Source: Spirogloea muscicola (Eukaryota; Streptophyta; Zygnematophyceae; Spirogloeales; Spirogloeaceae). From it: a stretch of DNA of 28,311 nucleotides. Made by a program: the position numbers and the translations under genes. Below the pieces are notes generated by a model. The model was not told where the DNA came from. It did no database searches and saw nothing but the letters and a program-made list of their open reading frames with translations. The DNA is taken from NCBI GenBank assembly GCA_009602725.1, contig WELB01000021.1, positions 413,003 through 441,313 on the forward strand. Reading direction: 5' to 3'. Shown here one piece after another: positions 1 to 28,311 of this stretch; position 1 is the first letter of the stretch, and each line of letters starts with the position of its first letter.

Positions 1-453
1 ACACAGGCAAAGCACTAGCGCATAGGCGCAGCGGAAGACAGGCCCCGTGGCGCCGCCGTCCGGCGGCGACTCCACCTCCTGGGCGCAGGCCGGCGCAGCA
101 GGCCCCGCAGCAAGGTGCGGCGGCGGCTGCGGCGGCGAGCAGCGGCAAGGCTGCTCCTGGGCTTCACCGGCTCGAACTCCCTCGAGCCTCAGCCCCAAGG
201 CTCTTCGTGCTTCCCCGTGCCACCCCCCCTCCAGGGGTGTGAGCGGGTCGCCTCATGGCCTGCCAGGCGGCGGGCCAAAGATCCTCCCTTGAACGGGCGA
301 GGGCACTTCTGGACGGGCGGGGCCCGCCTCTGGGCGGGCGGGCCACTTGCCCGGCAAGCCAGCCCGCCACCTGGCGGGCCCACTTGTCCCAAATAGCCGA
401 TCATGTAATGCCAACAGAGCCATGTGGCTTAACCAAATGGCTGGTTCATTACA
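1..453 (-). repeat. LTR-A, minus orientation, cut by the left window edge
   Basis: The reverse complement matches the 5' LTR of element A (13791-14338) almost throughout. It begins TGTAATGAACCAGCC at 453 and runs into the window edge about 85 bases before the expected LTR end. No purine tract precedes it on the minus strand, so it does not look like the 3' LTR of the flanking minus-strand remains. It is more likely a separate insertion into them. Whether it is solo or attached to an element cannot be seen. Confidence 0.85.
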
Positions 454-936
454 GTACCAGTGCCCCGCCGGCACCTCTCACTCCCCACCATCCTTCTTCA
501 CACGCAGAAGGTGGCCATCGCGCCACCGGTACCACTGCGCTCGCGGTCTTGGCCCTGCTCCTCCCTAGCGGATGATCGCGCCGCTGGAGGTACTCCAACA
601 ACTCCTGGTCATGCTAGACATCTCGCTCACCCCAGCCGCCTGCTGAGAGGTCCCCCATGGCATGGGCCTCGGAGAAGTGGGTGTCGTCAACCTACCTCCT
701 GCTATGGGACCGCCCTCGCGTGCACAAACGACATTGCTAGTTGCAAGGACTATCAACTGCTGCAAGGCTCCAGGGCGAAAATACGACCCGGAGAGTCCTT
801 CCTTCACGGCGGCCAGGCGATGCGCTGCCCAGCGACTTCAGACGCCGGCTCCCGCTCCACGCTCCGCGAAGCTCCTCCTCTGCTGCAGCGGCCTCCTCCT
901 CGGCTGCCGCAGACCACCCCCATCCACGTGCCATCA
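454..936. other. Unassigned GC-rich stretch between LTR-A and the protease remnant
   Basis: This lies downstream of the minus-strand protease remnant, where the related right-hand element has its methyltransferase. I looked for the methyltransferase motifs (FAGIG, ECQ or PCQ, ENV) on the minus strand and saw none. Open frames here are short and overlap on both strands, as expected from GC-rich sequence. It may be diverged or rearranged retrotransposon DNA. Confidence 0.4.
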
Positions 937-4509: not shown

Positions 4510-5322
4510 TTAAGTACGACGAGGGCGCGGAGTACTACGACGCAAAGGGGAATGCCCTTTTGCAAGATACTTACGGAGAATGGCGCGACAATGGGCAAGA
4601 TTGGCCGCCGGTTCCCAGATATTGTGCTCAGGTCCATAACCTAGCCACTTGACAAGGTACTCTCGGGACTTACGTCGCCCACGGAGTTTGTCGCGGTGAG
4701 ACAAGATCTCCTCCACCTGAAACTCTTCCTCGTTCGCAACAACGAGGGGAGGTGGGGGCGGTTGGACACGACCATCCGAATGGAATGGTTCGAGCTGGGA
4801 CACGTGGAATACTTTGTGGATTTTCCAGTGTACCGGTGTATCCAGCTCATATGCGACCGGACCGATACGGCGCACTACACGAAAGGGTCCAACCCACTTT
4901 GGCAGCAATTTAGGCGTACCAACTGCCCGCATGGAGAGGTGCTTTGTGCTCAAGAGCACTTGAGCACCCACGTCGAAGGATATATCTCGACGATGTCGAT
5001 CAGCATACGCCTTTTGCCGTTGCTGGGCAATCTCCAAGCATTGCCTAGCCCTCCGCTGAGCTTCCAGGAGGTGACCGGTAAAGGTTGCTGCGGCCGGCAC
5101 ACGTTCCGGCCTCCCCACCTGTAAAGGTGCCCGGGGATGCTGACCGTAAATAAGGAAGAAAGGGGTGTTCTTGGTGAACTCATGAAAGGCATTGTTCACA
5201 GCATATTCCGCTGGAGCAAGATACTCATCCCAGTCAGTCTGGCTGGGGTTTACAAAGTGCCGTAACATGTCCTCCAAAACCCGATTCATCCTTTCGGTCT
5301 GACCATCGGTTTGGGGGGTGGA
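4510..5322 (-). pseudogene. Element C integrase C-terminal half with GPY/F module and chromodomain
   Basis: This reads the last part of the integrase core, PQTDGQTERMNRVLEDML, whose Glu (codon about 5293-5295) is the third catalytic residue. The core continues with AEYAVNNAFHE. A GPY/F module follows (LLPKWVGPFRVVRRIG, about 4836-4902), then VFHVSQLEPF. A chromodomain comes last at about 4564-4722 ([31 protein letters not shown]). Chromodomains of chromoviruses bind modified histone tails and steer integration to heterochromatin; that role is family knowledge. The reading is one base out of phase with the upstream integrase at a run of six C on the coding strand (about 5310-5315). Confidence 0.88.
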
Positions 5323-6439
5323 ATGCCGTGGATAAGGATTGCTTAGTGCCAATAAGCCTGCACACTTCACGCCAGAAGTAACCCGTAAAGCGAGGGTCGC
5401 GATCAGACACGATTCGCTCGGGCACTCCGTGCAGTATCCATACACGGTCCACGAAGATACCAGCAAATTCCGGAGCGGACACTGTAGTGGTCGTAGGCGC
5501 AAAATGCACCAATTTACTTAGACGATCCACAAACACGACAATGGCATCATAGCCGTTTCGCGTCTTGGGGAATTGTGTGATGAAATTCACACTGACGTCA
5601 GACCAGTTCCGCGGAGGAATCTCCAAAGGTTGGAGCAACCTGGCAGGCTTCTGAGAGCGTGCCTTACTACCCTGGCAGGTGGCGCAAGTCTTCACAAAAA
5701 GACTGTACTTTTGGGCTTTCAAGCCGGGCCACCAAAAGAGAAGCTGAGTAGCTTTCTTTGTCTTCCCCATACCCAAATGACCACTATAGGGTGGCTCATG
5801 CATCTCCTGCATGATAGTACTTCGTAGGGCATTGCAGTCAGGAACTACAATGGCGTCCCCTTGCCACCAAAAATCTTGGTCAGACACTAGTGTGCGTGTT
5901 TCGTTTGCATTTGCAAACCACGGGTCGGTGCTATACCCATCACGAATACGCACATACAGCTCAGAGAGGTTGGCGGTGGACTGCCGAGCAGCTCCACGAG
6001 TAGGCCGCACGTCTGCGGTCTGAGCCCCTGATGCGTGCAAGACAGCCGCCACATCAGCCCCTACAATGTTGCGGCTCACCGGGTCCGCAACATTCATTAT
6101 TCCAGGGCGGTACACCCACTGGAAACGGAATATGGCCAACAACTCTGCCCACCTTGTTTGACGCCTGCTCAATTGCTGTTGTGTGTGGAAGTAGGTCAAC
6201 GGGCAGTGATCCGTTACGACCGTAAATTCAACACCCTCGAGATAGCATCGCCACACACGTAGGGCGTGCACAAAAGCAAGGAGCTCTTGCTCCCCCGTAG
6301 TGTAGTTACGCTCTGCCGGACGAAGCAGGCCACTCTCAAATGCTACGGGGTGACCCTCCTGCAAGAAAACGGCACCAATACCGATCAATGAGGCGTCACA
6401 TACTACTTCAAATGGCACGCCTTCTCGAGGCAAGGCCAA
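5316..6439 (-). pseudogene. Element C RNase H and integrase N-terminal half
   Basis: It begins with PFEVVCDASLIGIGAVF, the Ty3-type RNase H start with catalytic Asp, and continues with ERNYTTGEQELLAFVHAL, VVTDH and the tether YRPGIMNVADPVSR. An integrase zinc-binding HHCC domain follows (YSGHLGMGKT, then CATCQGSK). In the core the first catalytic Asp is replaced by Asn (SDVSVNFITQFPKT, near 5580-5600). Element A has the normal SVDFITQ. The second Asp is present in VSDRDPRFTGYF. The reading ends in a frameshift just before the third catalytic residue. The substitution alone should abolish strand transfer. Confidence 0.88.
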
Positions 6440-6872
6440 ACGGGTGGATTAACCAGGACCCGCTTATATCCTCGAATGCCTTCTGGCACTCGGACGTCCA
6501 CCCCCAGGACACGTCCTTACGAGTGAGCTTCGTAAGAGGAGATGCCATACTTCCGTATCCTTGCAGGAACTTACGGAAGTAATTCGCGAATCCCAAGAAG
6601 GATCGCAACTGTGGCACATTCCGTGGCACCGGCCAGTCCGTTACTACTGCAGTCTTTTTGGGGTCGACGCGAACCCCGTCTTTGCCCACCACATGCCCTA
6701 AGTATGTCAGCTCGGGCTGGTTAAAGACACACTTGGACTTTTTGGAATACAACTTATTCTCACGGAGCAACTGCAGCACTTGCCGCAGGTGCCGCACATG
6801 ATCCTCAGGCGTTTCGCTAAACACAAGTATGTCATCCAAGTAAACCAGTACGAACGTACAATAGGGGGCCAA
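6408..6872 (-). pseudogene. Element C RT palm and thumb/connection
   Basis: VLVYLDDILVFSETPEDH carries the YLDD polymerase active site. After it come SKCVFNQPELTYLGHVV, VDPKKTAVV and the Ty3 thumb signature LRSFLGFANYFRKF (about 6560-6610), then PLTKLTRKD and CQKAFEDI. The reading loses phase with the RNase H part through two apparent one-base deletions near 6464 and 6438. It is also out of phase with the preceding RT segment near 6866, next to a run of five C. Active-site residues are intact. Confidence 0.88.
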
Positions 6873-7942
6873 AGACCTTCGTCATTACAGCTTGAAATGT
6901 GGCAGGTGCATTGGTCAAGCCAAAGCTGAGCACCTTGAACTGGAAGTGACCGAGTGGCGTACGGAATGCCGATTTCGGTACATCCTCAGGTGTAATACGA
7001 ATTTGGTGATTAGCCGCTTTGCAAATCGAGGGAGCTGAACACATTATTAGCTAACGCGAGACGATCGAACAGATCATCAATGCGCGGCAACGGGTACCGG
7101 TTCTTGACTGTGAGCTTGTTCAAGGCTCGATAGTCGATGCACATCCGAAGACTACCATCTTCCTTCTTAACGAAGATCGGTGCACCGTACGGCGACTGGG
7201 AGGGCTCGATATGCCCTTTCTTCAGCAAATCCTCCACTTGGGATTGCATCTCGCAAAATTCGAGAGGACTCAGTCGATACATAGGACGGTACGGCGGCGC
7301 AGCGCCGGGCTCCAGAGGAATCGTATGAGCCACGCCTCGGTGAGGAGGCAGACCGTCTGGGAGAACTTCGGGGAACACATCCGAGAATTCTGCCAACAAC
7401 TTGTCAAGAGCCGGCCCATGTGAGGCCACATCACTCACTACTCCTGAGTCAGAGCGAGACTCAGCACTCATTACCACCAACAGATACACGGGCGAAGCCG
7501 GCTCTGCGTGAAGGAGCTTCTTGAACTGTATAGCCGACAGCTGGATAGAAGAAGCATTCACGGATGGTGGCGCGCGGGGAACGTCTTTGTGCAATACAAA
7601 ACGACGAGCACCGCGTTGACCAGAGCAAGTTCGCGCATCAAAGTCAAGTAGGCCCGCAGTGGAACAAAGCCAATCATCGCCCAAAATCACATCAAAGCCC
7701 GGTGCCAATTCAATGACAAGGCAAGACACAATTGTCTTATAATTTTGAATGTGTATGGGGACTCGACAATAGCCCATGACTTCGGCAGTTTGTCCATTAG
7801 CCAATGTAGCCTGAGAGACATTGATGGGCTTTACAACAAAACCCTTGTCGCTCACAACATTCTTACTGATGCAGGAGACAGTAGCCCCCGTATCTATGAG
7901 GATCTGGACCGCATGACCGGCCACCAGTCCCGAAAACACCAT
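6850..7942 (-). pseudogene. Element C protease and RT N-terminal part
   Basis: Pol appears to start at an ATG (7942) in [10 protein letters not shown]. The retropepsin signature [13 protein letters not shown] follows at about 7870-7910, and [10 protein letters not shown] closes the protease. RT begins around [12 protein letters not shown], with the fingers motif [20 protein letters not shown] and then SSLDLQSG. One inserted A near 7011 causes a stop, after which the reading resumes as HQIRITPEDVPKSAF, VLSFGLTNAPATFQ. Gag and pol lie in the same frame but are separated by stops over about 170 bases, where element A instead has overlapping frames. Confidence 0.87.
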
Positions 7943-8110
7943 AGTTGGCGCTGCGGCAGCGACTGCCGAGGCACTTACGGTAGTAAGAATGAAACTCCGA
8001 GCTACTTATACGAACAGTTTCCTCGAGGGACGTACAACATTTTCAACCTCCGATTTCACTTGAGGGCGCTTCGCCTTCTTGCGACACAGCAACACCAGCC
8101 CCGACGGAGG

Positions 8111-9492
8111 TTAAGGGTTCACTCCTCGACTGCATGGCACGATGAAGAACACCGGTTCTCTAGCACCATGGAGACTGATCCAGCTCAAGTACATGCTCGC
8201 AGCTTTTTGCAACTGATTGGAAGGAACCCATACAACGAGGGGACCTTCGTTCACCAGCGCTTGCTTAAGCCCATGTAGAGAGCGTACTACTGGCATAACA
8301 GACAGCGGACACACTCGTCCTAAGCGTTCAAAGAGCATTTCCACATCATGCCGATGAAACACCCACAACGGTGATAGGGAGGGGGACTCACTTTTCCCTT
8401 TTCCCTTGTACAAGCCCTTCGGGCGCGTCGAAGCAGGCTTGGTAGGTTGGGACGTCGGCGGTTGCAGACAATCCCGTATCCGGTGGCCCTTTTGGCCACA
8501 CCGGTAACAAGCCCTGTCCTCTTCTGGGACAAACTTCGCTGCAGCCTTGGCTGGCGCCGACCGCGATGGTGGCCCAGGCTTACTACTTGGCTTGAACCCG
8601 GACTTGGGCTTGAAGCGCTTTGCGGGTGACAGTCTCGATTTGTCCCCATTTTCCTCATGGAGGAAACGCTTGCGCGTCGGGTACATCGAGTACGACTGCC
8701 GAGCTTGCTCGACGAGCTGCTCCAAAGTCGTCACCGGCTGAAAAGTGGTCTTGTCCACTTGCGACATCACCGCGATGTGCTGTGGCAAACCAGCTTTAAA
8801 GCGCTGTACTTGGTCCTTGGCGTCCATGGACCCGCACTTCACCAGCAGCATGTGAAACTGCCGGACATACTCTTCGAAGTCATCACCTCGCATGCGGATT
8901 GCATCGAGTGCATTGCGAGCTTTTAGCTCCGCATGGACTTCGCCGTACATTGTAGTCAACGACCTTGTGAAGAAATCCCACGTATTGAATACACTGGGGG
9001 TAGAGGATAGCTTCACAGACTCCCACCACGCGGCAGGGTCACCGGTCAAATACGTGGCAGCAATGCCAACTCGCGATGCCGATGGTGCCTCACAGAGGAC
9101 GAACCATGCCATCATTTCGCGCAACCACGCTGCGAGACTGCCCTGCCCACTGAACTTGGCAGGTTGGCATTGCTGGGCACGGCCCAGCCGAGCGCTGTGG
9201 CTTACTTTCGCCTTCAGGCGTTGGATGCGTTCCTCGCCCGCACACACACGGGCAATGAGGATCCGCACCTCGGCACACAGCATCCCCACACGGGATTTGC
9301 CAGCGATTCCCCACCGGGAACGGCAGTCTCCAACTGCTTCAGGCGCGCAAGGCGCCGCACCTCTTCAGAAGTCAGCCCATCCGGGCCAGGTGCACGGAGC
9401 TGCGCTAGGTCGTAGACAACGTCCTCTACTTCAGGAGGAGGTACAGCTGGCGGTGGAGGGCTTGGTGGTGCACTTGAGCTAGCCGACTCCAT
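8111..9492 (-). pseudogene. Element C Gag, one frameshift
   Basis: The likely start is MESASSSAPPSPPPP at 9492. The reading shifts frame near 9290 and continues with FSGQGSLAAWLREMMAWF, a retrotransposon gag capsid-like domain (AATYLTGDPAAWWES, FKAGLPQHIAVM). A basic linker and one CCHC zinc knuckle follow (CYRCGQKGHRIRDC, 8468-8509). After the knuckle comes a conserved segment of about 90 residues (8117-8350: DVEMLFERL, GPLVVWVPSNQLQKAASMYL, VFFIVPCSRGV), which element A also has and which I do not recognise. Gag forms the particle and binds RNA. Confidence 0.85.
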
Positions 9493-10032
9493 GCCTTTAC
9501 ACCACACACACTGAGGGATCAAGTCAGCGGTTGGCGTAAGACACAACGGCCAGGACAATACTACCACAATGGTACTGAGCTATGCCGGGGCCCCGGAAAA
9601 GCAAAGCAATCATGGCAGCGCACCAACCATTTCCCCAACTCGCAAGCTGTACGAGCAACTGAGGGAGGGACCAGGACTGGAGTACGGACCAGCCTCTGGC
9701 AGATAGTCAGACTTGGCCGCCCAGCGGCGATCGGTTTCAACTCCTTGCATACGGCAGGCGATCCGCCGACCGCAGAAGGTTACGCAGGCAAAGTACTGAC
9801 CTGGCAATACGGCTTGCCGCCGGAGTGGTGGAGGATCTGCCGCCATAGCCGACCCCGGACACGTGGATGCAGTGGGCGATAGGATGGACAGCACCAGTCG
9901 ACCCGGCGATGCAAATCCACGGATACACTCTGGCACGAAGACATCTCAAAGGACCAATCAGTGCCAGCACATCAGAAGGAACCTTGCACTGTCAACCGTA
10001 AAAGATTACGAGGCCAATCAGATGCAAGGACT
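9493..10032 (-). other. Element C 5' untranslated leader
   Basis: About 540 bases lie between the primer-binding site and the Gag start on the minus strand. No supported coding region is seen. Packaging signals would be expected here, but none can be identified by eye. Confidence 0.6.
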
Positions 10033-13790: not shown

Positions 13791-14338
13791 TGTAATGAAC
13801 CAGCCGTTTGCTTAAGCCACATGGCTCTGTTGGCATTACATGACCGGCTATTTGGGACAAGTGGGCCAGCCAGGTGGCGGGCTGGCTTGCCGGGAAAGTG
13901 GCCCGCCCAGAGGCAGGCCCCGCCCGTCCAAAATAACCCTCGCTAGGATCCGCCGGTTCAAGGGAGGATCTTTGGCCCGCCGCCTAGCAGGCGATGTGGC
14001 TACCCGCTCACACCCCTGGAGGGGGGGTGGCACGGGGAAGCACGAAGAGCCTTGGGGGCTGAGGCTCGACGGGGGAGTTCAAACCGGTGAAGCCCAGGAG
14101 CAGCCTCGCCACTGCTCGCCGCCGCAGCCGCCGCCGCACCTTGCTGTGGGGCCTGCTGCGCCGGCCTGCGCCCAGGAGGTGGAGTCGCCACCAGACGGCG
14201 GCGCCACAGGGCCTGTCTTCCGCTGCGCCTATGCGCTAGTGCTTTGCCTGTGTAGTGGGTTGGTCCCTCAACCCCCTACAGCCGAACTCAAGAAGGACTT
14301 CTCACCCTAACTGCGTGTGTAGGGCGAGATTCCTTACA
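13791..14338 (+). repeat. LTR-A, 5' LTR of element A (548 bp)
   Basis: It runs from TGTAATGAACC to GATTCCTTACA and is followed directly by the primer-binding site. Its U5 end holds TCTTCCGCTGCG (14217-14228), a hairpin GGGTTG/CAACCC (14257-14274), GGAC, and a terminal hairpin CTCACCCTA/TAGGGCGAG (14301-14328). Other copies or fragments are at 1-453, 21895-22180 and 22798-22982. Confidence 0.9.
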
Positions 14339-14340
14339 TT

Positions 14341-14352
14341 TGGAATCAGAGG
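14341..14352 (+). other. Primer-binding site of element A
   Basis: TGGAATCAGAGG lies two bases inside the LTR. It differs by one base from the initiator-Met core TGGTATCAGAG found in element C, at the same spacing. Confidence 0.8.
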
Positions 14353-14840
14353 CGGTCTTGCATTCATCGCGCTTGTGACTTACTGTGCTCGCCGCTCTTG
14401 ATGCAAGGATCACCCTGATGTGCTGGCCTGACCCTGATTCTGTCAAAGATAAAGTGCTTGCCAGACGTTGGTCCGAGAGGCGGCTCAGCGGAAGCGCCGG
14501 GTGTGGAGCCATCTTTGCGCAGTGAGCCAGCAACGACCAACGCCAGATTGACCGACTGATCCTTGAGGACCACTTGCTGCTTTCGCTTCGCGAGGTGTGG
14601 CTTGAGCCTGCAGCCTTTGTGTGGTAAGGTCAGTCGTGTGGCCAGCAGTGACCGTGTGCATCGGTCCTGGTCATATCTGCGGCTGTCTGCCTGCCTGCTG
14701 ATTGAGGTGTGGAGTTGCGCGCTGCCTTGCTTGCTCGCTCGCTGGTGCACCAGTCTTGCGATGTCCTGTATTGCGGTATGGAGTGTGTGATTTGCTGACT
14801 GTCGGAGCCTGGATTGATCACTCAGTGTCCTTCAGACAGC
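14353..14840 (+). other. Element A 5' leader
   Basis: About 490 bases lie between the primer-binding site and the Gag ATG. The leader of element C is of similar length. I see no coding region. Confidence 0.6.
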
Positions 14841-16580
14841 ATGGTATCGCACACCTCCAGTGCGCGGCCGAGCCCTCCTCGGGAGGCAGAGCAGGCGGCT
14901 GCTGAGGCAGCGGCTGCTGCAGGGCCAGCTGCTGCGGCAGTGGCTGCTGCGGAGCACGCCCAAGAGGGGCACGCCCACGAGGGGCACGCCCACGAGGGGC
15001 ACGCCCAAGCGGGGCTCGCCCACGAGGGGCACGCCCACGAGGGGCACGCCCAAGCGGGGCACGCCCAAGAGGGGCACGTCGAGCTGGGAGCCGGAGGCCA
15101 GGGAGGCTTGTCGGCTGGGGACTTGCAACGCGTTGCACTCCTCACTCGGGATCTGGCAGCAGCCCAGTCTACGACGGACCCAGCTCAAAACCGGCTTCTT
15201 GCGAGGATCTGCGCGGAGCAGCGCGCCCTCCTCGTCCGGCAGCGCGTCGAGGAGCGGCACATGCAAGAGGTGGATGCCTCGTTGCATCCGATGCGCAAGA
15301 GCAGCGGCAACCCTGAGCATGGACTTGCCAGGGCCCATGCACCCAGACAGTTCTCCGGTCACGATGATCGGGGAGGGTTGCAGCCATGGCTGGATGAGAT
15401 GGACGAATGGTTCGTCTGCTTCAACACGGACGCGGGGACACGCGTGCGCCTCGCTGCCACCTACCTCTCAAGGGAGCCCCCGGAGTGGTGGAACACTCTA
15501 AAGAAGGGCTCTACGCGCGAGGAGTATGGTGGTTGGGACTTCTTTTGCAGCTCGCTTACGTCGGCGTATGGCGACCCACACGCAGAGCTGCGCACCCGCG
15601 ATGAGCTGGATGCTCTCCGCATGAGGGGCGAGGGAAGCGAGGGCTTTGAGCCCTACGTGTGGCGATTCCGTCTGCTGCTGTTTAAGCTACGCAGCGAGCC
15701 CATGAAGCCAATTGACCAATGCCAGCGACTTAAGGCTGGACTGCCTACTCGCTTCTGCAATTGGGTCGCGGTGGATTCCGCAACAGCGCAACCTGTCACA
15801 GACTTCACCGAGATGGTGGAGCACGCCCGCAAGGTGCTCAGCACGCCGGAAATTGCCGGTCCGAGCAAGCGTCCCCTGCTGGAGGCAGGCGGCTTTGATG
15901 CAGAGCGAGGCAAGAAGCGGTTCGTCCCAAGGCACGGCTTGAACGCTCGACCTCAAGGCGACTTACCCAAGCCGCGGGTGGAAGGCGCTAGCTGCTTCAA
16001 GTGCGGTGCCAAGAGCCATCAGCTCAGGGACTGCCCGGCGGCAGGTCCCTCTTCCTCACGGCCACGTCCACAGCGCCCTATGGGCCGGGACCAGGGCAAT
16101 TCCAGGAGCAAGCGTGAGTGCTTGACCCCTACCTCTGCAAGCCATCTAATTCAGCCAGACGCACTTGAGCTGTTTGATCTTGCTGGCATTCCTGCGTCAA
16201 CCAACATACCGCTTGTGCGCTACATTATTGCTTTATTGCAAGGTCTGGAGGCAAGAGGGCCTCTATTTGTGTTGGTTGCCCACAATGACTTGCAAGAGGC
16301 TGCAGATGTCTATCTGAGCTGGCCTGAGTGCCGTCGGCCTGAAGAAATGCTGTTCTTCATTGTGCTACAGAAGCGCGGCGTGATTGATCAAGCTTCGCTG
16401 GGGATGTCGCTGTTGTGCTCGCACGAGGCGGGACACAGGCTCCTTAGGCGTAGTGTCGATGAAACCCGACTTTGGTCAGGGTATATGTCGCTCGCACCCC
16501 ATTCCTTGGCAGTGTCCATGGGGGACACACTATGCTTTTTGAGGGGCTGGTTGCTGCGGCACCAGCAAGGATCCTCATAG
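14841..16580 (+). CDS. Element A Gag with a pentapeptide repeat array
   Basis: This is an uninterrupted 579-residue Gag. I chose the ATG at 14841 (MVSHTSSARPS), since upstream in-frame codons offer only non-ATG starts. The order is an Ala-rich stretch, a tandem array of EGHAH/EGHAQ units (14952-15081), a capsid-like gag domain (QPWLDEMDEWF, AATYLSREPPEWW, RLKAGLPTRF; about 15380-15850), and a zinc knuckle CFKCGAKSHQLRDC (15993-16034). The ca. 90-residue post-knuckle segment shared with element C follows (ALELFDLAGI, GPLFVLVAHNDLQEAADVYL, FFIVLQKRGV; about 16160-16385). The end overlaps the start of the protease frame. Its integrity contrasts with the decayed pol. Confidence 0.9.
   Translation: MVSHTSSARPSPPREAEQAAAEAAAAAGPAAAAVAAAEHAQEGHAHEGHAHEGHAQAGLAHEGHAHEGHAQAGHAQEGHVELGAGGQGGLSAGDLQRVALLTRDLAAAQSTTDPAQNRLLARICAEQRALLVRQRVEERHMQEVDASLHPMRKSSGNPEHGLARAHAPRQFSGHDDRGGLQPWLDEMDEWFVCFNTDAGTRVRLAATYLSREPPEWWNTLKKGSTREEYGGWDFFCSSLTSAYGDPHAELRTRDELDALRMRGEGSEGFEPYVWRFRLLLFKLRSEPMKPIDQCQRLKAGLPTRFCNWVAVDSATAQPVTDFTEMVEHARKVLSTPEIAGPSKRPLLEAGGFDAERGKKRFVPRHGLNARPQGDLPKPRVEGASCFKCGAKSHQLRDCPAAGPSSSRPRPQRPMGRDQGNSRSKRECLTPTSASHLIQPDALELFDLAGIPASTNIPLVRYIIALLQGLEARGPLFVLVAHNDLQEAADVYLSWPECRRPEEMLFFIVLQKRGVIDQASLGMSLLCSHEAGHRLLRRSVDETRLWSGYMSLAPHSLAVSMGDTLCFLRGWLLRHQQGSS
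14952..15081 (+). repeat. 15-bp minisatellite coding for an EGHA(H/Q) repeat
   Basis: About nine units of GAGGGGCACGCCCAC lie in tandem and vary mainly at the last codons (CAC or CAA) and GAG/GCG. The array stays in frame within Gag and is also free of stops in all three minus-strand frames. It encodes a His-rich acidic spacer in the Gag N-terminal part. Confidence 0.92.
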
Positions 16581-16618
16581 ACTCAGGGGCCTCAGTGTCA
16601 AGCTTCTCGGCAGACCAC
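16532..16618 (+). pseudogene. Element A truncated protease start, overlapping Gag
   Basis: An ATG at 16532 opens MLFEGLVAAAPARILIDSG, homologous to MVFSGLVAG...ILIDTG of element C and containing the retropepsin catalytic triplet DSG. The frame is -1 relative to Gag, and CTTTTTG spans the overlap. A slip or re-initiation could connect Gag to Pol; this is inference. About ten codons after DSG the deletion junction changes the sequence to integrase material and a TGA ends the frame, so no working protease can be made. Confidence 0.8.
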
Positions 16619-18073
16619 GGCTGAGCTCTCTGAGCTCTACGTGCATATCCGTAAAGGGTATGGCACAGACCCATGGTTTGCTGACGCCGCCAACGTAAGC
16701 ACCCTCACTGATGACAAAGGCTTCTGGTGGCAAGGTGACGCTATTGTAGTCCCGAACTGCAATGCCTTGCGCACAGACATAATGCAGGAAGTGCATGATA
16801 CGCCTTACAGTGGTCATTTGGGAGTGAGCAACACCAAACAGGCTGTGCGACGCCTCTTTCGGTGGAACGGGCTTTTCAGCCCAGGTGCGCGCTTTTGTGG
16901 CAAGCTGTGCCACATGCCAGCGTAGTAAGGCAATCTCTGGCAAGCCTGCCGGATTACTTCAGCCCTTGCAGATTTCGGAGCGAATTTGGTCTGATGTAAG
17001 TGTGGATTTTATCACACAATTGCCTCAGACGCGGAACGGCTATGATGCCATTGTCGTCTTTGTGGATCGCCTGAGTAAAATGGTGTGCATTTTGCTCCCG
17101 CTACTACGCGGGCATCGGCGAAGAAGTTCGCTGGCATATTCGGGGATTAGGTGTGGAAGCTACATGGAGTACCTGAGAGGCTGGTCTCGGACCGCGATCC
17201 TCGCTTTACAGGTCACTTCTAGAAAGAAGTCTGCAAGCTTATTGGCACGAAGCAGTCCATGTCCACAGCCTTCTATCCTCAAAGGGATGGCCAAACTGAG
17301 CGAATGAATTGAGTTCTTGAGGACATGTTGAGGCACTCTGTCAAATCTAGCCAGACTGGCTGGGATGACTATTTGGCTCCAGCTGAATATGCTGTGAACA
17401 ATGCCTATCATGCGTCCACAAAGGAGACTCCATTCTTCCTCAGCATCCACGAGCTCCACTTCAGGTGGGGAGGCCGGAACGGGTTCCCGCCGCGGTAGAC
17501 TTTACTGGGACCGACCCTCTTGGAGGCTCAGAGACGAGCTCGGTTTTTCTTGGAGATTGCTCAAAGTCACCAGAAGGCTTATGCTGACAAACATCGGAAG
17601 GACGTGTCCTTCGATGTTGGTGCGCAAGTGCTGAGCACGAAGCATTTATCCTTGCGCGCTGGGGGTAAGCGCAAGTTGCTGCCCAAGTGGATTGGACCAT
17701 TTGCAGTAGTACGCCTTGTGGGCAAGGTGTCCTACGAGTCGAAGACACCGGTGCATTGGAAGGTCCATAACGTCTTCCATGTGTCTCAGCTGAGGGCCTT
17801 CCTTTCGGATGGTCGTGTCCAATCGCCCCCCCTCCACTAGTCATCGAGGATGATTTGGAGTTTGAGGTGGAAGAGATCTTGTCTCACAGGGACAAGCCTC
17901 GAGGGCGTAAGACCCGTGAGTATCTGGTGAAGTGGCTCGGGTATGGGCCTGAGCACAACACGTGGGAGCCTGCGGCCAATTTGGCAAATTGACCAGATGC
18001 TCTCAGGGAATACCTGGCCAAGGGTGGTAATTCTCCTAGGCTTGGTAGAGGCAGCAGCCGTCGGGCATCTTAA
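16601..18073 (+). pseudogene. Element A integrase and chromodomain, frameshifted
   Basis: Right after the deletion the sequence reads AELSELYVHIRKGYGTDPWF and continues through the zinc-binding domain (YSGHLGVSNTK, then CATCQRSKA after a shift near 16885). The core begins VSVDFITQLPQT with the catalytic Asp intact. Further shifts and stops follow near 17085, 17148 and 17220. The GPY/F region LLPKWIGPFAVVRLVG lies at about 17680-17730. After another shift, a chromodomain ([33 protein letters not shown]; about 17861-18025) contains a TGA at 17990. It is clearly dead as a protein. Confidence 0.87.
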
Positions 18074-22982: not shown

Positions 22983-23385
22983 TGTCATGCCCGGGCGCGT
23001 CGGCGTCGTCGTAGTGTCGTGCAGAGGGTGGTTGGGCGGAAGGTGCCAGGTCATCGTACCGGTACACGTGGCATAGGCAGGAGAGGTGTGAACGGGACCC
23101 TCGGGGGAGTAGACCTTGGGAAGCCGCGCCACCCGTGTGGGAGAGGGAGAGCCCCGGGGGCGTCGAAATGGCGAAGTCCTGTACCTCCTGCCTTGACCCC
23201 CCCGCGGGGGTAAGTCACGTGGCTGGCGGAGAGAGACCCATCTCTCCGCTAGTCCTCTCGGAGAACCGGGGCGCCCTAGCGATGGCGGCGCCGCGGAATG
23301 CGGGGATGCTGGCGCGGGTTTGGGGGGTGTAGAGCGGGCGCGCCAGTGAGGCCGAAGCGGGGGAGATCCCCCGGCGGGGGTGACA
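22983..23385 (+). repeat. 5' LTR of the methyltransferase element
   Basis: It starts TGTCATGCCCGGGCG and is taken to end GGGGTGACA, giving the 5-bp inverted termini TGTCA/TGACA and a length of 403 bp. The start is firm because a second copy of this terminus is at 13084 (minus). The end is inferred; the following CGCACTGTGGATGAGCG is not an obvious primer-binding site for a known tRNA. Confidence 0.65.
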
Positions 23386-23511
23386 CGCACTGTGGATGAG
23401 CGAGTGAGAGAGCGAGCCCATTACTTGCGGAGAGATGGGCGCAGCGAGCCTGTGCGGCCGCGGGAGGGCAATGCAGCGGCAGCAGGCGCCGGCCGGAGGT
23501 GGCGCCGCCTG

Positions 23512-24842
23512 ATGCCCACTCGCCGCGGCACGGACTACGCGCCATCCGCCCGGCAGCGCGACGCCGAGGCGGACGACCCCGACCTGAGTGACGGTGAGGG
23601 CAGCCACTCCTCGGGCTCCAGCACGGCCAGCCACGTGGCAATGGAGGCCGAGGAGGCGGCCCCCAAGGTCGGGCGGCGGTACACGGGGCGGTCCGATGGG
23701 ATCTCCCCGGTGGAGTTGGAAATGCGCGTGGAGGCGGCCCTGGCGCGGATGGAGCTCAATCCTCGCTTCACCCGTCGTGTAGGGTTTAAGGTGCTGCCAG
23801 ACTACCTGGCAGGCCCGGCGTTGCAGTTTTATGGGAGAGTGAGGGACGAGGTGTTAGCCCTGCGGGAGGAGGTACCGGCGGCCGCGGTGGTGGCTGTAGA
23901 GGGCGGGGAGCCTGAGAGCTCTGCAGCGGCGGACTCGAGGTCTGCCGTGGGGGTCGCAGCGGGGAAGCAGGAGGAGCGCCTCCTGGCTGACCCGGTGACC
24001 CACTTCCTACGGTTGCTCGGGCGTCAGTTCAAGACTGACACCGCGGCCAAGGTCGCGGAGCTGACCAACTTCCGTAGGCTGCCGGGTGAGGATGTCATGG
24101 TGGTGGCTGAGCGGATGAAGCAGCTGCGCCGCGACACCGGGCGGCCGGAGGTCGACGCTGCCCAGCGCTTCCTGGATGCGCTGAGTGGCGGGAAGAAGGG
24201 TCTGTGGCTCGAGCAGCAGGTGTTCGCAGCGTACCGCCGCGACTTCACAATCGACCAGGTCGCTGAGCTGGCGGACGAGGTGGAGCGCCACTTCGCGGGC
24301 AAGGCGGTGGAGCCACCGGCACCAGCCAAGGCGGCTGAGGCGAGGGGCTTCAAGGGGTTCCACCGCGGCGGCGCCAAGGCGGCAATGGAGGCAGCGGCGG
24401 GCGGGGGCAAGAAGGCCATGGCGGCAGCGGCTGCCGCGGGCACCGGCGGCGGCGGCCCCCCTCCCCCGCGCTGCTACGTCTGCAACCAGCTTGGCCACCT
24501 GAAGCGGGAGTGCCCGAAGGCCGCTGGCATGCAGTGTAGGCACTGCGGCAAGAGCGGGCACGGGGCTGACGCGTGCTGGACCCTGCATCCGCAGCTGCGC
24601 CCGGCGCACCTGCAGGCTCATGCAGCGGCGGGGAAGAGCTCGGCGTCGGGTGGTGCGCGGGGAGCGAAGGGGAAGCGCGCTGCTGTCGGCGGGGGGGGCG
24701 CCGCGATGGAGTCCCTGCGCGCACAACTGGCGGAGCTGCAGGCGGGGCTGGCGATGCTGGTCGCACGCGGTGGCCAGTCGGAGCAGGACCTTGAGGACGA
24801 GGAGGAGGCAGCGCACCGCAACCGCTTCGGGCTGGCGGTGCA
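23512..24842 (+). CDS. Gag of the methyltransferase element
   Basis: The first in-frame ATG is at 23512 (MPTRRGTDYAPSARQR); the open frame extends further upstream without ATG. An acidic Ser-rich N-terminus leads into YTGRSDGISPVELEMRV and PDYLAGPALQFYGRV. A capsid-like segment follows (DPVTHFLRLLGRQFKTDTAAK, trimmed here to its start; FRRLPGEDVMVVAERMKQL, QRFLDALSGG). Two zinc knuckles come next: CYVCNQLGHLKREC (24472-24513) and CRHCGKSGHGADAC (24535-24576). A helical MESLRAQLAELQAGLAML lies near 24706. Gag packages the RNA and builds the particle. It runs on into the protease region without a stop once the duplicated block at 24843-25198 is allowed for. Confidence 0.85.
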
Positions 24843-25198
24843 GATCGCGGACTGCTGGATGGCGGGCCGCAAGGGGAAGGGGAAGAGGAGGTGGAGGGGG
24901 AGGGCCCCTCGGGGAGCGGGGAACACGGCCGCGTGCAGGAGGAGCACGGGCCTCGCTGGCCCCGCTCATTCCAGCTGCTCCCCGACACCGCCGACCCGGA
25001 GAGGCCGGTCCTGGACGTGNGATCGCGGACTGCTGGATGGCGGGCCGCAAGGGGAAGGGGAAGAGGAGGGAGGAGGGGGAGGGCCCCTCGGGGAGCGGGG
25101 AACACGGCCGCGTGCAGGAGGAGCACTGGCCTCGCTGGCCCCGCTCATTCCAGCTGCACCCCGACACCGCCGACCCGGAGCTGCCGGTCCTGGACGTG
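24843..25198. other. Assembly join: N at 25020 inside a duplicated block of about 177 bp
   Basis: Sequence from GATCGCGGACTGCTGGATGG at 24843 to GGTCCTGGACGTG at 25019 is repeated almost exactly at 25021-25198, with a single N between. The copies differ by a few substitutions and a small indel. In the second copy the reading IADCWMAGRKGKGKR continues smoothly into the protease region; in the first it runs out of frame. The offset of 178 bases accounts exactly for the apparent frame change between Gag and protease. This looks like two contig ends overlapping rather than biology. Confidence 0.85.
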
Positions 25199-26620
25199 CG
25201 ACCTGCGGGAGGGAGGGCCAGGCCGCCGCTGCGCAACACTGCGCAGTGGCTGGCTGCCGCTCTCATGCGGACGCCGACGCTGACATTGGCTGACGTTGGC
25301 GTGACGGAGGCGGCGCTAGCGAAGGCGCTGCGGCAGCACCTGCCCGCCCTTCCTGACGGCTTGGCGGGTGCAGAGGACGTGGAGGTCCCTGCACTCGAAG
25401 CCGCCTGTGGAGCGAATGCCCCACCCGCGTACAACTGCAGCGGGGTCCTTAAGCAATTAAGGATCCCTGCCAGATCGCCTCTATCCCTGCCACTGCCGGT
25501 GCCTGTTGCTGCCGAGTCTGAGGGAAGTCAGCTGGCTGTGGAGGGGGAACCCAGCGCGGGCGGTGCACTGGCAACCCGCGCAGGGGAGGTGTCGAGCGCG
25601 ACTGAGGAGGACGCACTGGAGGACAACCCAGCCGTGAAGGACGCCTGGGGAGCGGATGCCCCACCCGCGTACAAATGCAGCGGGGTCCTTAAGCAATTAA
25701 GGGCCCCTGCCAGGTTGCCTGACTCGCAGACGCGCGCTGTGGCTGTGGTGGACGTCCCTGGGGAGTCGGTTGTGCTGCGCCCGAGCGAGCCCATGCCAAG
25801 CACCGGTGCCTGGGGGGCTGCCCGTGCAGGGGTGCCAGCATCACCACCCCGGCGGCTGGTCGCAGAGCGCTTGGAGGTCATCCCCAACGTGGCCCGCGTC
25901 GAGAACGAGAAGGGGGTCATCACCTTCAACGGGTGTGCCCCGGCGCGCGAGATGGTCGACTCCGGCGCGCAGCGCGTGCTGCTGGGGCGTGCCATGGTGG
26001 GGGAGCTGAGTCTCAGGGCCAAGGACCTGGAGCCATCCCCCATCCGCATCAAGACCGCGACAGGAGGCGCGGCGACGGGGGTCCTGCAGACCAAGGACCC
26101 CGTCACCATCACCTAGAACGGGGGAACGGCAGACGAGGTAACCCTGCACCTCCGATGCCTGGTGACCGAGGCCACATCCTACGACGTGCTTCTGGGCACG
26201 GAGTTCTTGTACCCAGTTGGGGCAGGGATTGATACGTGGGAGGAGGTGGGGTACTACCGCCCTGGGTACGCGCGAGGGGAGGGCCGCAAGGCCACCTTCC
26301 CGCTGAAGCTCGTCGGCTGTGCGGAGGCTGGGACGGCCTTCGCGTGCCACGGTGAGATGGCCTGGAAGGGCCACGAGCTGCTCGACATGCCGCCAGAGGA
26401 GGAGGCCAGCATGGCGATGGCGGCTGGGTGGGCGCCTGCGAGCTCGGCGGAGCAGGTGGCTCCGGCGGACCCGTGCGCAGCCGACTTGGCGGTGGAGCTG
26501 GCGTGGAGCACCCAGGCGCTGCGAGCGCGGGAGCCGGCCACCAGCCCGCTGGAGACGCTGCAGGAGTGCGGGGACCCTCCTGTCGACTCGGGCATCATCG
26601 AGTGGGCTGTACCGGAGGGC
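25021..26620 (+). pseudogene. Protease region of the methyltransferase element, in-frame TAG
   Basis: A long linker (MRTPTLTLADVGVTEAAL, LRQHLPALPDG) contains two copies of an APPAYxCSGVLKQLRxPAR motif (25405-25470 and 25645-25710). The retropepsin follows: IPNVARVENEKG, FNGCAPAREM, catalytic VDSGAQRVLLG (Asp codon 25958-25960), LRAKDLEPSPIRIKTATGG. A TAG at 26114-26116 interrupts the domain. The same frame then resumes with the conserved end YDVLLGTEFLYPVG and a spacer (ATFPLKLVGC, LETLQECGD) leading straight into the methyltransferase. The equivalent position in remnant E is a Leu codon, so the stop is probably a mutation; retroviral-type read-through cannot be excluded. Confidence 0.8.
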
Positions 26621-27755
26621 GGCATTGTCCTCGTCGAGTTCTTCGCGGGCATCGGGACCGGGCTGGCCGCGGTGCTCGCCAACGGCATTCGGGTCAGCCG
26701 GTACGTTTACATGGAGCCAGACCCCGCTGCGCAGTCGGCAGCGCGGCACCACGGCGCTCCTGTCCGCGTACCCGCAGCTGCTAGTGGAGGGTGCAGTGCT
26801 CGGCTTCCAGAGCACCCTGCCAGCCGACATCCGGCTGGTAGGGGAGAGGCACCTGCCGTTGCTGGGGCAGGTGGGCCTGGTGGTGGCCGGGTGGGAGTGC
26901 CAAGGCCACTCGCGCGCCGGCAAGGGGAGGGGGCTGGCGGACCACCGCTCGCGCCTCTTCTGGGAGCTGGAGCGTGTGCTGGCGCTGCTGCAGCAGGGGC
27001 AGGAGGCCCCTGTTGCCTACATCCTCGAGAACGTGCCAGCGGGAGAGGACCGGCGCGACAGCGTGCAACGCGACTTCGACATCGTGGAGTCCCGCATCGG
27101 GCGTGGCGTGGCGCTGGACGCGGCAGCGCTCGGGAGCAGAGCACACCGCCTTCGGGTGAAGTGGACGAAGCTTGCTCGCCCCGAGTTGCTCGCTGCTGTC
27201 GCCGCGCTGGAGCGCCGACCCCCCGGGTTGGTCGTCGACGACATCCTGGACCCAGGACGCTCGTCGCAGCCAGTGGTGAAGGAGGACTGCGCGCCCTACG
27301 CGCAGTGCAACAAGGTGGGGCAGCCGCGGGCTGCCTTGCCGACGCTGGTCAGCTACCCAGGCTCGTACGCGTTCCGCAACGGCGGGCCAGGCCTCGTCTG
27401 GGACGAGGCAACACGTCGCTGGGAGGAGCCGCGCGCCGACGAGCGGGAGCGCGCGATGGGATTCTGCACGGGCACCACCGCAGCGCCTGGGCTCACGGAG
27501 GCGCAGCGCCGCAAGCTCCTGGGCCAGGCCATGGATCTAAACGCCTTGAAGTGGCTGCTCGCAGTTTGCCTGGCAGCGCAGCGGAGCCAGCGAGCGGCAT
27601 GGAGGCGAGCGGAGGAGCTGAGGCGGCAGTGGGTAGCGCGCGCGGGAGCTGGCGGGCACCCATTGGGGGGGGGAGCAGGGAGCAGGAGGACAGGACCGGT
27701 AAAGCAGGTTGCACAGGTGGCACCCCAGCAGGAGGCGGGGGGGGCCCTGGAATAG
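26621..27755 (+). CDS. DNA (cytosine-5) methyltransferase domain captured in a retrotransposon
   Basis: It transfers a methyl group from S-adenosylmethionine to cytosine C5 in DNA. Visible motifs in canonical order: I (SAM binding) LVEFFAGIGTGLAAVLANG at 26633; II YVYMEPDPAAQSA near 26704; IV GWECQGHSRAGKGRGLADHR with the catalytic Cys codon at 26898-26900; VI YILENVP at 27018; VIII SRAHRLRVKW near 27136; a short target-recognition region; IX ERERAMGFCTG near 27445; X GQAMDLNALKWLL at 27523. The Pro before the catalytic Cys is Glu (ECQ, not PCQ). Motifs I and II are one frame away from the rest; a one-base change near 26748 separates them. With about 310 residues it is a catalytic core without the N-terminal regulatory domains of host maintenance enzymes. 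Motif IV resembles bacterial and DNMT1-type enzymes more than DNMT3/DRM. Confidence 0.88.
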
Positions 27756-28311
27756 CAATCACTGCAGGAGGTGCGGGGGGGGCGGGAAAGGAGAAGCCGC
27801 CCCCGGAGTTGGACCTGGGGGAGCAGCTCACAGCGGAGGAGCGCAGGCAGTGGGTAGAGCTGCTGGAGGGGAGGCGCCTGACTTTTGCCTTCTCCATGGC
27901 AGAGCTGGGAACCTGCAGGAAGGCAGAGATGGAGATCGAGCTGACCACGACGGAGCCGGTCTACCGCAGGCGGCATCGGCTGAGCCCAGTCGAGTGGGAG
28001 CTGGTGCGGCAGCGGTGCGAGGAGCTGCTGCGGGTCGGCCTGATCGAGGAGTGTGAGTCCAGATTCGCTGCCCCGACTGTCATGCCTGCCAAAAAAGACT
28101 TGTTCGGGCAGTGGACGGAGAAGAGGATGTGCGGTGACTATCGCGCGCTGAACGACGTCACGAAGCCGGATAAGTACCCAATGCCGACCCCGGAGGAGAT
28201 CTTCGACGTCGTAGGTGCAGCCTGCTTGTTCAGTGTGCTGGATCTCAGGCAGGGCTTCAACCAGATAGTCATCCGGCAGGGGGACCGGGGGAAGACCGCC
28301 TTCTGGGGAGC
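27756..28311 (+). CDS. Reverse transcriptase N-terminal part, cut by the window end
   Basis: The RT reading (ELDLGEQLTAEERRQWVELL from 27806) goes through TEPVYRRRHRLSPVEWELV and GLIEECESRFAAPTVMPAKK, then MCGDYRALNDVTKPDKYPMP, and ends in the palm start LFSVLDLRQGFNQIVI. The active-site YxDD lies outside the window. It is one frame away from the methyltransferase end. The frame is open for at least 200 bases upstream, so the switch could occur at either G-run (27665-27673 or 27737-27744). No protease stands between methyltransferase and RT, so the two would be neighbours in one polyprotein. Confidence 0.87.

Follow-up and report, generated by a model that had tools for sequence, protein, structure and literature searches.

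A cytosine-5 methyltransferase (MT) domain lying between the protease and the reverse transcriptase (RT) of a retrotransposon raises the question of whether it belongs to the element or landed there by chance, and, if it belongs to the element, where in the polyprotein it is made and what it might do. Such a domain was found at positions 26621-27755 (+) of a 28,311-nucleotide stretch of Spirogloea muscicola DNA (the window, C21:413003-441313). The window was analyzed against the assembly of 153 Mb and 471 contigs.

The methyltransferase in the window copy

The MT domain of the window is split across frames 2 and 3. The frame 3 piece (26748-27752) matched PF00145 with 33.2 bits (E 5e-8, cut-off 22); it scored 33 bits against TIGR00675, below the cut-off of 101. 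The N-terminal piece alone (26621..26746) gave no Pfam match and was assigned by motif reading. The window copy retains the catalytic Cys, ENV, SRAHR..WT and motif X; motif numbers in Table 1 follow the usual scheme. An earlier note, made from the letters alone, had read C5 methyltransferase motifs in order at this place, with Gag and retropepsin on the left and RT on the right in one direction, and had proposed one frame correction near 26748. These readings were borne out: all parts lie on the plus strand, and the frame break near 26748 is present and private to the window copy. In the copies L017, L019 and L026, one frame runs from the end of the protease through motif I into the next part of the MT; L017 stays in frame throughout the MT, and L019 and L026 break further on within it.

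Two more frame changes are private to the window. One lies between Gag and protease, where L018, L020, L024 and L026 have a single frame, and the other just after 27755, where L019, L023 and L026 have the stop and RT in one frame. A programmed frameshift within the MT or between Gag and protease was ruled out, because other copies are single-frame there. In the linker between Gag and protease, the window carries a 150-nt direct repeat (24873-25201, 91% identity) with an unresolved base in an open-frame stretch, and this repeat may be linked to the frame change there.

The protease of the window scored 22 bits against Asp_protease_2 and 21 bits against gag-asp_proteas, both below the cut-offs, which were exceeded in L017. 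RVT_1 gave 20.9 bits, also below cut-off, for a match cut by the window end. The window end corresponds to L036 1-114, followed by an assembly gap (L036 115-1587) in which the right part of the copy is lost. The left end of the element, at 22983, interrupts another repeat, the uninterrupted form of which is found at window 101/102 and L036 5774/5775. Copies of the left terminal repeat elsewhere include the pair C142:369555-369989 and 378423-378859. The window copy is unable to make the protein and is a decayed member of an old Ty3/gypsy family.

Two further degenerate Ty3/gypsy elements without MT lie in the window, at 4510-9364 (-) and ~13791-17883. The MT copy of the window (by its left flank) and the C142 copy (by its right flank, in L024) were both inserted in copies of the ~13791-17883 element. 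Rfam gave no match on the window at gathering scores.

Table 1. Features of the window copy and terminal repeats of two further copies
Feature	Position	Strand	Basis or remark
Window: left terminal repeat A1, begins TGTCAT	22983..23418	+	element's left end; 95-97% copies elsewhere
Window: Gag region, frame 1	23512..24700	+	zf-CCHC 29 bits, over cut-off; start is first in-frame ATG, end approximate
Window: two Gag CCHC zinc knuckles	24469-24516, 24532-24579	+	zf-CCHC match
Window: retropepsin core, DSGA motif to LLGTEFLYP, frame 2	25952..26221	+	Asp_protease_2, gag-asp_proteas
Window: MT N-terminal piece, motifs I-II, frame 2	26621..26746	+	motif reading
Window: motif I, frame 2	26624-26677	+	
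Window: motif II, frame 2	26699-26728	+	
Window: MT motifs III-X, frame 3	26748..27566	+	PF00145 33.2 bits
Window: motif III, frame 3	26811-26840	+	
Window: motif IV, frame 3	26883-26921	+	
Window: motif VI, frame 3	27015-27044	+	
Window: motif VIII, frame 3	27135-27173	+	
Window: motif IX, frame 3	27327-27365	+	
Window: motif X, frame 3	27516-27566	+	
Window: linker, motif X to stop, frame 3	27567..27752	+	
Window: TAG CAA TCA, stop codon and CARYYA hexamer	27753..27761	+	proposed type I readthrough signal
Window: RT N-terminal part, frame 2	27884..28311 (start approximate)	+	RVT_1; runs past window end
C142 sister copy: A1	C142:369555-369989		
C142 sister copy: B1	L024 8257-8423		
C142 sister copy: A2	L024 ~8424-8860		
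C142 sister copy: B2	L024 8867-9033		
L028: A1	267-567		
L028: B1	8527-8760		
L028: A2	8763-9062		
L028: B2	9565-9798		

Occurrence in the genome and in other organisms

At least 71 places in the genome matched PF00145, and the window MT as query gave at least 120 matches, of which one copy can yield several. For the comparison of loci, matches were merged into at least 97 places for MT and at least 79 for protease, with most of the MT matches and part of the protease matches used, and set against 52 RT loci with at least 50% identity to the RT of the window or of L029. Among the matches listed, 39 of the 52 RT loci had an MT on the same strand, no more than 2 kb upstream. Twelve of the 13 RT loci without MT also had no listed protease within 4.5 kb, the region being truncated or deleted or, in one case (C142:374118), falling in a gap. 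The earlier note had held that RT directly after protease in other copies would speak for a chance insertion of a host gene. That arrangement was seen at one locus among the matches listed, C17 (L056), where homology to ORF1 breaks off shortly ahead of motif I and is regained 22 codons past the stop. Since this gap spans both the MT and the stop, the MT was deleted there.

The recurrence of the same order at 39 of 52 RT loci indicates that the MT is part of the element, as the earlier note had proposed, and is enough to refute the rival explanation that a host gene happened to insert between protease and RT in one copy. Dozens of genomic sites show the order Gag-protease-MT-RT, and open frames of up to 1411 aa span Gag, protease (PR) and MT. 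The trees of MT and RT (32 of 33 and 31 of 33 rows, pieces under 100 aa left out) were concordant in their main groups as judged by eye on trees printed without support values, and the order protease-MT is also found in a liverwort protein. With these observations against it and none found in its favour, the probability of chance insertion is negligible.

At least 41 copies were read (39 loci, L017-L035 and L037-L056, with L026 read twice, and the window). They fall into two subfamilies: A consists of the window and L017-L026, with L027 distantly related, and B of L028-L035 and L037-L056. Identity between A and B is about 34-38% in the MT and 50-57% in the RT. In subfamily A, a linker module that precedes the protease is repeated after the MT (L017 2865-3249 and 5109-5254), with an identity of 88-99% in L017 and 81-85% in L018 and L019. 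The subfamilies differ strongly in base composition, which was 0.71 GC with a CpG o/e of 0.87 in the window MT, and 0.50 GC with a CpG o/e of 0.59 in ORF1 of L029.

A search with the MT profile against the PDB placed DNMT3A/DNMT3B on top (E ~1e-21), followed by M.HaeIII (4e-11), DRM2 (6e-11), then M.HhaI and DNMT2; no chain named DNMT1 was among the 57 listed. The model of the window's own MT piece (pLDDT 51) was not used, and an unbroken relative, P0001, was modelled with a mean pLDDT of 60 (74-95 for residues 41-140, in blocks of ten). All of its best 50 fold matches listed were DNMT3 or DNMT3/3L entries (E 4e-9 to 5e-7), with TM-scores of 0.33-0.37 by query, which are low because the C-terminal half was poorly modelled. 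By best profile and fold match, the MT is classified as DNMT3-type.

The profile search for MT relatives found 81 proteins, among them a protein of the liverwort Calypogeia fissa that combines protease and MT, and an MT relative in the desmid Closterium sp. NIES-54; no match was labelled Klebsormidium, in a set in which two proteins only carried organism names. With the liverwort and desmid proteins the family extends beyond one alga, and the arrangement looks long-lived in the plant lineage rather than peculiar to a single genome. When a distant bacterial-type enzyme was taken as the root of the tree, subfamily B branched first (support 99 for the B clade, 84 for everything besides B and the root), and subfamily A sat among metagenome, liverwort and desmid proteins, with a weak tie to P0001 and P0002-like proteins (47, FastTree 0.82). 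With this soft root, the A and B lines would have split before A parted from its relatives, or would have moved between hosts.

The metagenome protein P0022 (757 aa) has an MT-like ECQ region, which gave no match to Pfam PF00145, followed directly by the integrase domains H2C2 and rve with no RT match between; this layout is either a different order or an effect of the gene model. The long polyprotein region as query gave no match among 7976 candidates scored. In viral_contigs and genome_contigs, 50 and 95 pattern matches were obtained and no relative was confirmed at that sensitivity, at which a viral or prokaryotic origin was set aside.

The stop codon between methyltransferase and reverse transcriptase

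A single in-frame stop parts the MT frame from the RT frame in L028, L029, L031, L032 and L034; in L029, an ORF1 of 1411 aa, the stop and an ORF2 of 1037 aa follow one another in the same frame. These five copies, in which the stop was first seen and its place fixed, served as references in a set of 33 junctions. Twenty-three others were positioned by aligning them with the codons that directly follow a reference stop, with L048 extrapolated over two codons. The junctions of the window, L018, L025, L044 and L055 were located by the pattern itself and are thus not independent support; those of the window, L018 and L025 resemble the aligned junctions of L019 and L026. Eight copies have no MT-RT boundary to read: RT is out of reach in L017, L021, L022 and L035, L020 and L024 run into an assembly gap, RT is too distant in L027, and the MT is deleted in L056.

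The stop was present at 29 of the 33 junctions (21 TAG, 8 TGA and no TAA), and the six bases after it were CARYYA in 29 of 33; as the copies are related, these counts are not independent events. Stop and hexamer occurred together in 26 copies. Among aligned junctions only, 19 of 23 had the stop. It was missing in L030, L041, L052 and L053, and in L028, L044 and L048 it was followed by a hexamer that deviates from CARYYA. Every other column of MT or RT had at most two stops, against a background of 31 in 9398 MT codons and 23 in 5646 RT codons. Decay stops in the same MT and RT pieces comprised 20 TGA, 17 TAA and 17 TAG. Because TAA is common among these, its absence from all 29 junction stops looks unlike decay, with the reserve that the copies are related. 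TAG and TGA alternate within subfamily B, where L028 and L051 carry TAG amid TGA copies.

The second codon after the stop encodes Ser in 11 copies, Leu in 11, Pro in 9, and Arg and Thr in one each, and it has the form YYA in 30 of 33. In subfamily A, CAA is followed by YCA in 7 of 7 copies, despite a GC3 of 0.84 in the window MT and 0.75 in L017. Since YYA is kept while the amino acid varies, and codons ending in A are kept in the GC-rich subfamily A, the constraint on the hexamer looks to act at the nucleotide level.

CARYYA is the hexamer of readthrough of the tobacco mosaic virus (TMV) type, and in a mammalian reporter it was reported to act about equally with UAG and UGA and much more weakly with UAA (PMC4132726). 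In plants, readthrough of 32% was reported for the TMV site and 11% for the BNYVV site; UGA or UAA in the TMV context gave less than UAG, yet all three were decoded (PMC2754532). The junction shares with type I readthrough of TMV (UAG CAR YYA) the stop with its hexamer context, and differs from it in lying in a retrotransposon, between MT and RT, and in using UGA too. All parts of a type I signal, stop, CARYYA and an open frame beyond, were found here, the last being the 1037 aa of ORF2 in L029. In the reference copies, and in the 19 copies placed by alignment that have a stop, RT lies in the frame of that stop. A programmed frameshift between MT and RT was ruled out, because RT shares the frame of the stop, and an altered code in which TAG encodes Gln is unlikely, given open frames of up to 1411 aa without TAG, TGA or TAA.

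The conserved stop with CARYYA would very probably act as a leaky readthrough signal, as judged from the pattern of conservation. The rival explanation is that the stop is a true end, RT being made from a spliced or internal transcript or by re-initiation. It is consistent with the four copies of 33 that have no stop, but RT continues in the frame of the stop, the hexamer is kept in its nucleotides while amino acids vary, and clades exchange TAG and TGA without losing the stop, TAA being absent though common in decay; we consider this rival quite improbable.

The preferred reading of the stop as leaky bears on where the MT is made. The earlier note had placed it within Pol. The conserved leaky-type stop separates MT from RT, and MT is thus assigned to the Gag-protease side. 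In alpharetroviruses, recoding takes place between gag-pro and pol, with the protease on the Gag side. The element resembles recoding retroelements in that recoding would set the ratio of Gag to Pol and in that the protease lies on the Gag side as in alpharetroviruses, and differs in that an MT is added on that side and CARYYA is used. A stop between gag and pol has been described in Tca2 (PMC2194720) and in RIRE2 of rice (cited in PMC2754532). The conserved leaky-type stop offers a concrete and testable answer to where, and in what amount, the MT is made.

Element architecture, known systems and possible role

The Pol side was read in ORF2 of L029, where RVT_1 (105 bits), RT_RNaseH (129), H2C2 (52) and rve (44) follow in the order RT-RNase H (RH)-integrase. 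By its domains the element is Ty3/gypsy. The integrase is of the DDE type, and no tyrosine recombinase, the criterion of DIRS elements, was found among the Pfam matches of the pieces scanned. Past the integrase, at the C-terminal end of ORF2, lies a PHD finger (PF00628, 38.7 bits, cut-off 24). It is present in both subfamilies, with 48.9 bits in L019, 43.0 in L033, 44.2 in L035 and 39.6 in L024 (stops read as letters), and was matched by tblastn in L018 and L028. Among solved PHD fingers, the nearest belong to ATXR5, KMT2D, KDM5B, CHD4 and KDM5A, with UHRF1, BAZ2 and PHF21A below these. Several of these solved fingers read unmethylated H3K4, and by analogy the PHD finger of the element is predicted to be a reader of H3 unmethylated at K4, a reader added to the MT as writer.

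The terminal repeats are not ordinary LTRs. In L028 and the C142 copy they are split direct repeats in the layout A1-ORFs-B1-A2-B2; in L028, B1 adjoins A2 internally, and A1 and B2 bound the element. In L028, A2 is followed by about 450 nt absent from A1 and then by a 47-nt stretch, a repeat of 556-602, that immediately precedes B2. L028, the one copy of which both ends were read, begins with TGTCAT and finishes with CACGACA. It is flanked left and right by ACGT, a 4-bp target duplication; a match of four flanking bases has a chance of 1 in 256. The B1-A2 junction is GACAGCTGTCAT in both L028 and the C142 copy (L024). A 19-base form of this junction from L024 had seven exact matches in the genome, itself included, and its backwards control had none. 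The junction has the look of two ends of the element that have been joined, as would occur in a circle. The element is thus gypsy by domains, DIRS-like by repeats, and DDE by integrase. Alignment of the L028 repeats gave 2 differences in 293 positions for A1 against A2, and 7 in 232 for B1 against B2; if the repeats start out identical, so few differences indicate a fairly young insertion.

Retrotransposons carrying a DNMT have been in print since 2018 (de Mendoza 2018, PMC5890265), and the statement of the earlier note that MT capture was reported in dinoflagellates and Klebsormidium agrees with that paper. A 2025 survey describes DNMT3 in retrotransposons of streptophytes and dinoflagellates (PMC12344493). 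By description, the nearest relative is KnitGypsy-Dnmt3 of Klebsormidium nitens, in which a Dnmt3 domain lies in the Pol ORF of a Gypsy element with DIRS-like repeats (PMC5890265). The two share the set of Gypsy domains, a Dnmt3-type domain free of introns, a DIRS-like repeat layout in spite of the Gypsy domains (in the two copies read here), a charophyte host, and purifying selection on the domain (PMC5890265). They differ in that the DNMT there is described in the Pol ORF, whereas here it lies on the Gag-protease side of a leaky-type stop. In yeast, no methylation was obtained with the isolated domain of KnitGypsy-Dnmt3, a result that the authors termed inconclusive (PMC5890265). SymbioDIRS-Dnmt3 and SymbioLINE-Dnmt of Symbiodinium are likewise DNMT-carrying retrotransposons, and the SymbioDIRS domain, in one ORF with RT, methylates CG in yeast (PMC5890265); those elements use tyrosine recombinase or LINE machinery, unlike the DDE integrase here. 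Ginger1 DNA transposons also combine a Gypsy-type integrase with extra C-terminal domains, which include a PHD finger in Ginger1-9_HM; as described there, they are DNA transposons, with no mention of an MT (PMC2836005). The main text of de Mendoza 2018 makes no mention of PHD, readthrough or frameshift (PMC5890265), and no description of a leaky stop or PHD finger in DNMT retrotransposons was found among the open-licence PMC papers listed. This kind of element is already known. The features that set the present one apart are an MT located on the Gag side of a conserved stop of the TMV type, a PHD finger and, in motif IV, an ECQ line.

The observed order, frames, catalytic residues, purifying selection, stop with hexamer, PHD finger and repeats can be joined in one life cycle. 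The element would run from A1 through Gag-PR-MT in one frame, a leaky-type stop (UAG/UGA with CARYYA) and RT-RNase H-DDE integrase-PHD to B1-A2-B2. Most ribosomes would halt after the MT and yield abundant Gag-PR-MT, and a minority would read through to Gag-PR-MT-RT-RH-IN-PHD. Since the MT would be made with Gag-PR upstream of the leaky stop, it would be packed in the particle at Gag dose, and shipping in the particle via Gag becomes more plausible. The protease would cut the MT free, and the freed MT would carry out de novo methylation of the element's double-stranded cDNA or of its new insertions; the earlier note had suggested that self-methylation may let the element pass as host heterochromatin, escape a nuclease or damp its own expression. 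Through the PHD finger at the end of the integrase, the cDNA would be guided to chromatin in which K4 of H3 is unmodified. We hold this account as a whole, from Gag-PR-MT and readthrough to methylation of element DNA by a particle MT and targeting by PHD, with moderate confidence. The part in which the MT is packed at Gag dose, freed and active de novo on cDNA or new insertions is proposed tentatively, and the steering by the PHD finger more tentatively still. It is rather doubtful that the two form a chromatin kit, in which a DNMT3 writer at Gag dose pre-methylates the cDNA and a PHD reader lands it in H3K4-unmethylated chromatin; if they did, the element, on entering the genome, would already be marked in the manner of silent host DNA.

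Motif IV bears on whether the MT is active at all. In the window it reads GWECQG, with Glu in place of the usual Pro before the catalytic Cys. The motif was readable by pattern in 27 of 39 loci and in the window: in subfamily A, EC is found in 8 of the 9 readable copies, the window among them, and GC in L018, and all 19 copies of subfamily B in which the pattern located the motif carry PC. EC is also present in Calypogeia fissa P0023, Closterium P0058 and the metagenome protein P0022, and ECQ thus looks inherited rather than a product of decay; PC is present in P0001 and P0002-like proteins. The change from Pro to Glu could lower activity in subfamily A. It and its sharing with these three proteins would suit a domain kept for binding of DNA, RNA or particle contacts and weakly or non-catalytic, at least in the ECQ subfamily A. 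This explanation is improbable, given the retained catalytic residues and motifs of the window copy and the PC of subfamily B.

An active MT might instead act on integrated copies or host DNA, silencing its own family and lowering harm to the host, rather than protecting cDNA. Self-limitation of this kind is an option discussed by de Mendoza 2018 (PMC5890265), and diverse lineages persist here with the MT under purifying selection. By the Nei-Gojobori method on MT pieces without stops, dN/dS was mostly 0.10-0.20: 0.17 for the window and L017 over 296 codons, 0.11 for L017-L020, 0.15 for L031-L030, 0.14 for L029-L049 and 0.13 for L034-L038. It was 0.49 for L017-L026, both stop-free, and reached 0.85 in pairs including broken copies; as dS exceeds 1 or is saturated in many pairs, the values are rough. 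They indicate that the MT is kept by purifying selection; its capture is old. Against self-limitation, selection for self-restraint would be hard to sustain, and co-expression with Gag points to a role in the particle. CpG decay is also not clearly higher in MT elements: CpG-transition ratios were 1.6-2.9 in six comparisons and 0 in two with few differences, overlapping those of other repeats (0.97, 1.02, 1.13 and 2.21). We regard self-limitation as unlikely.

Further protease matches, with 72-82% identity to subfamily A and no listed MT or RT nearby, were seen at C84:88457-92779 (-), C38:684858-688015, C61:119083-119619, C114:124699-128660 and C253:101743-103229. A-like repeats flank the protease of C84 on both sides, about 4 kb apart, and lie on one side at C38, C114 and C253. 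From their coordinates, these loci are candidates for short, non-autonomous members of the family that carry Gag and protease. An LHCII exon from the assembly scored 420 bits against a tandem LHCI chain, 343 against 7xqp_a (moss) and 321 against 6kac_Y (Chlamydomonas), by which the host is probably a streptophyte. Host tubulin and LHC genes in the assembly were often paired at near-equal score (C3/C262, C23/C154 and C33/C293), as in separated haplotypes or recent duplication.
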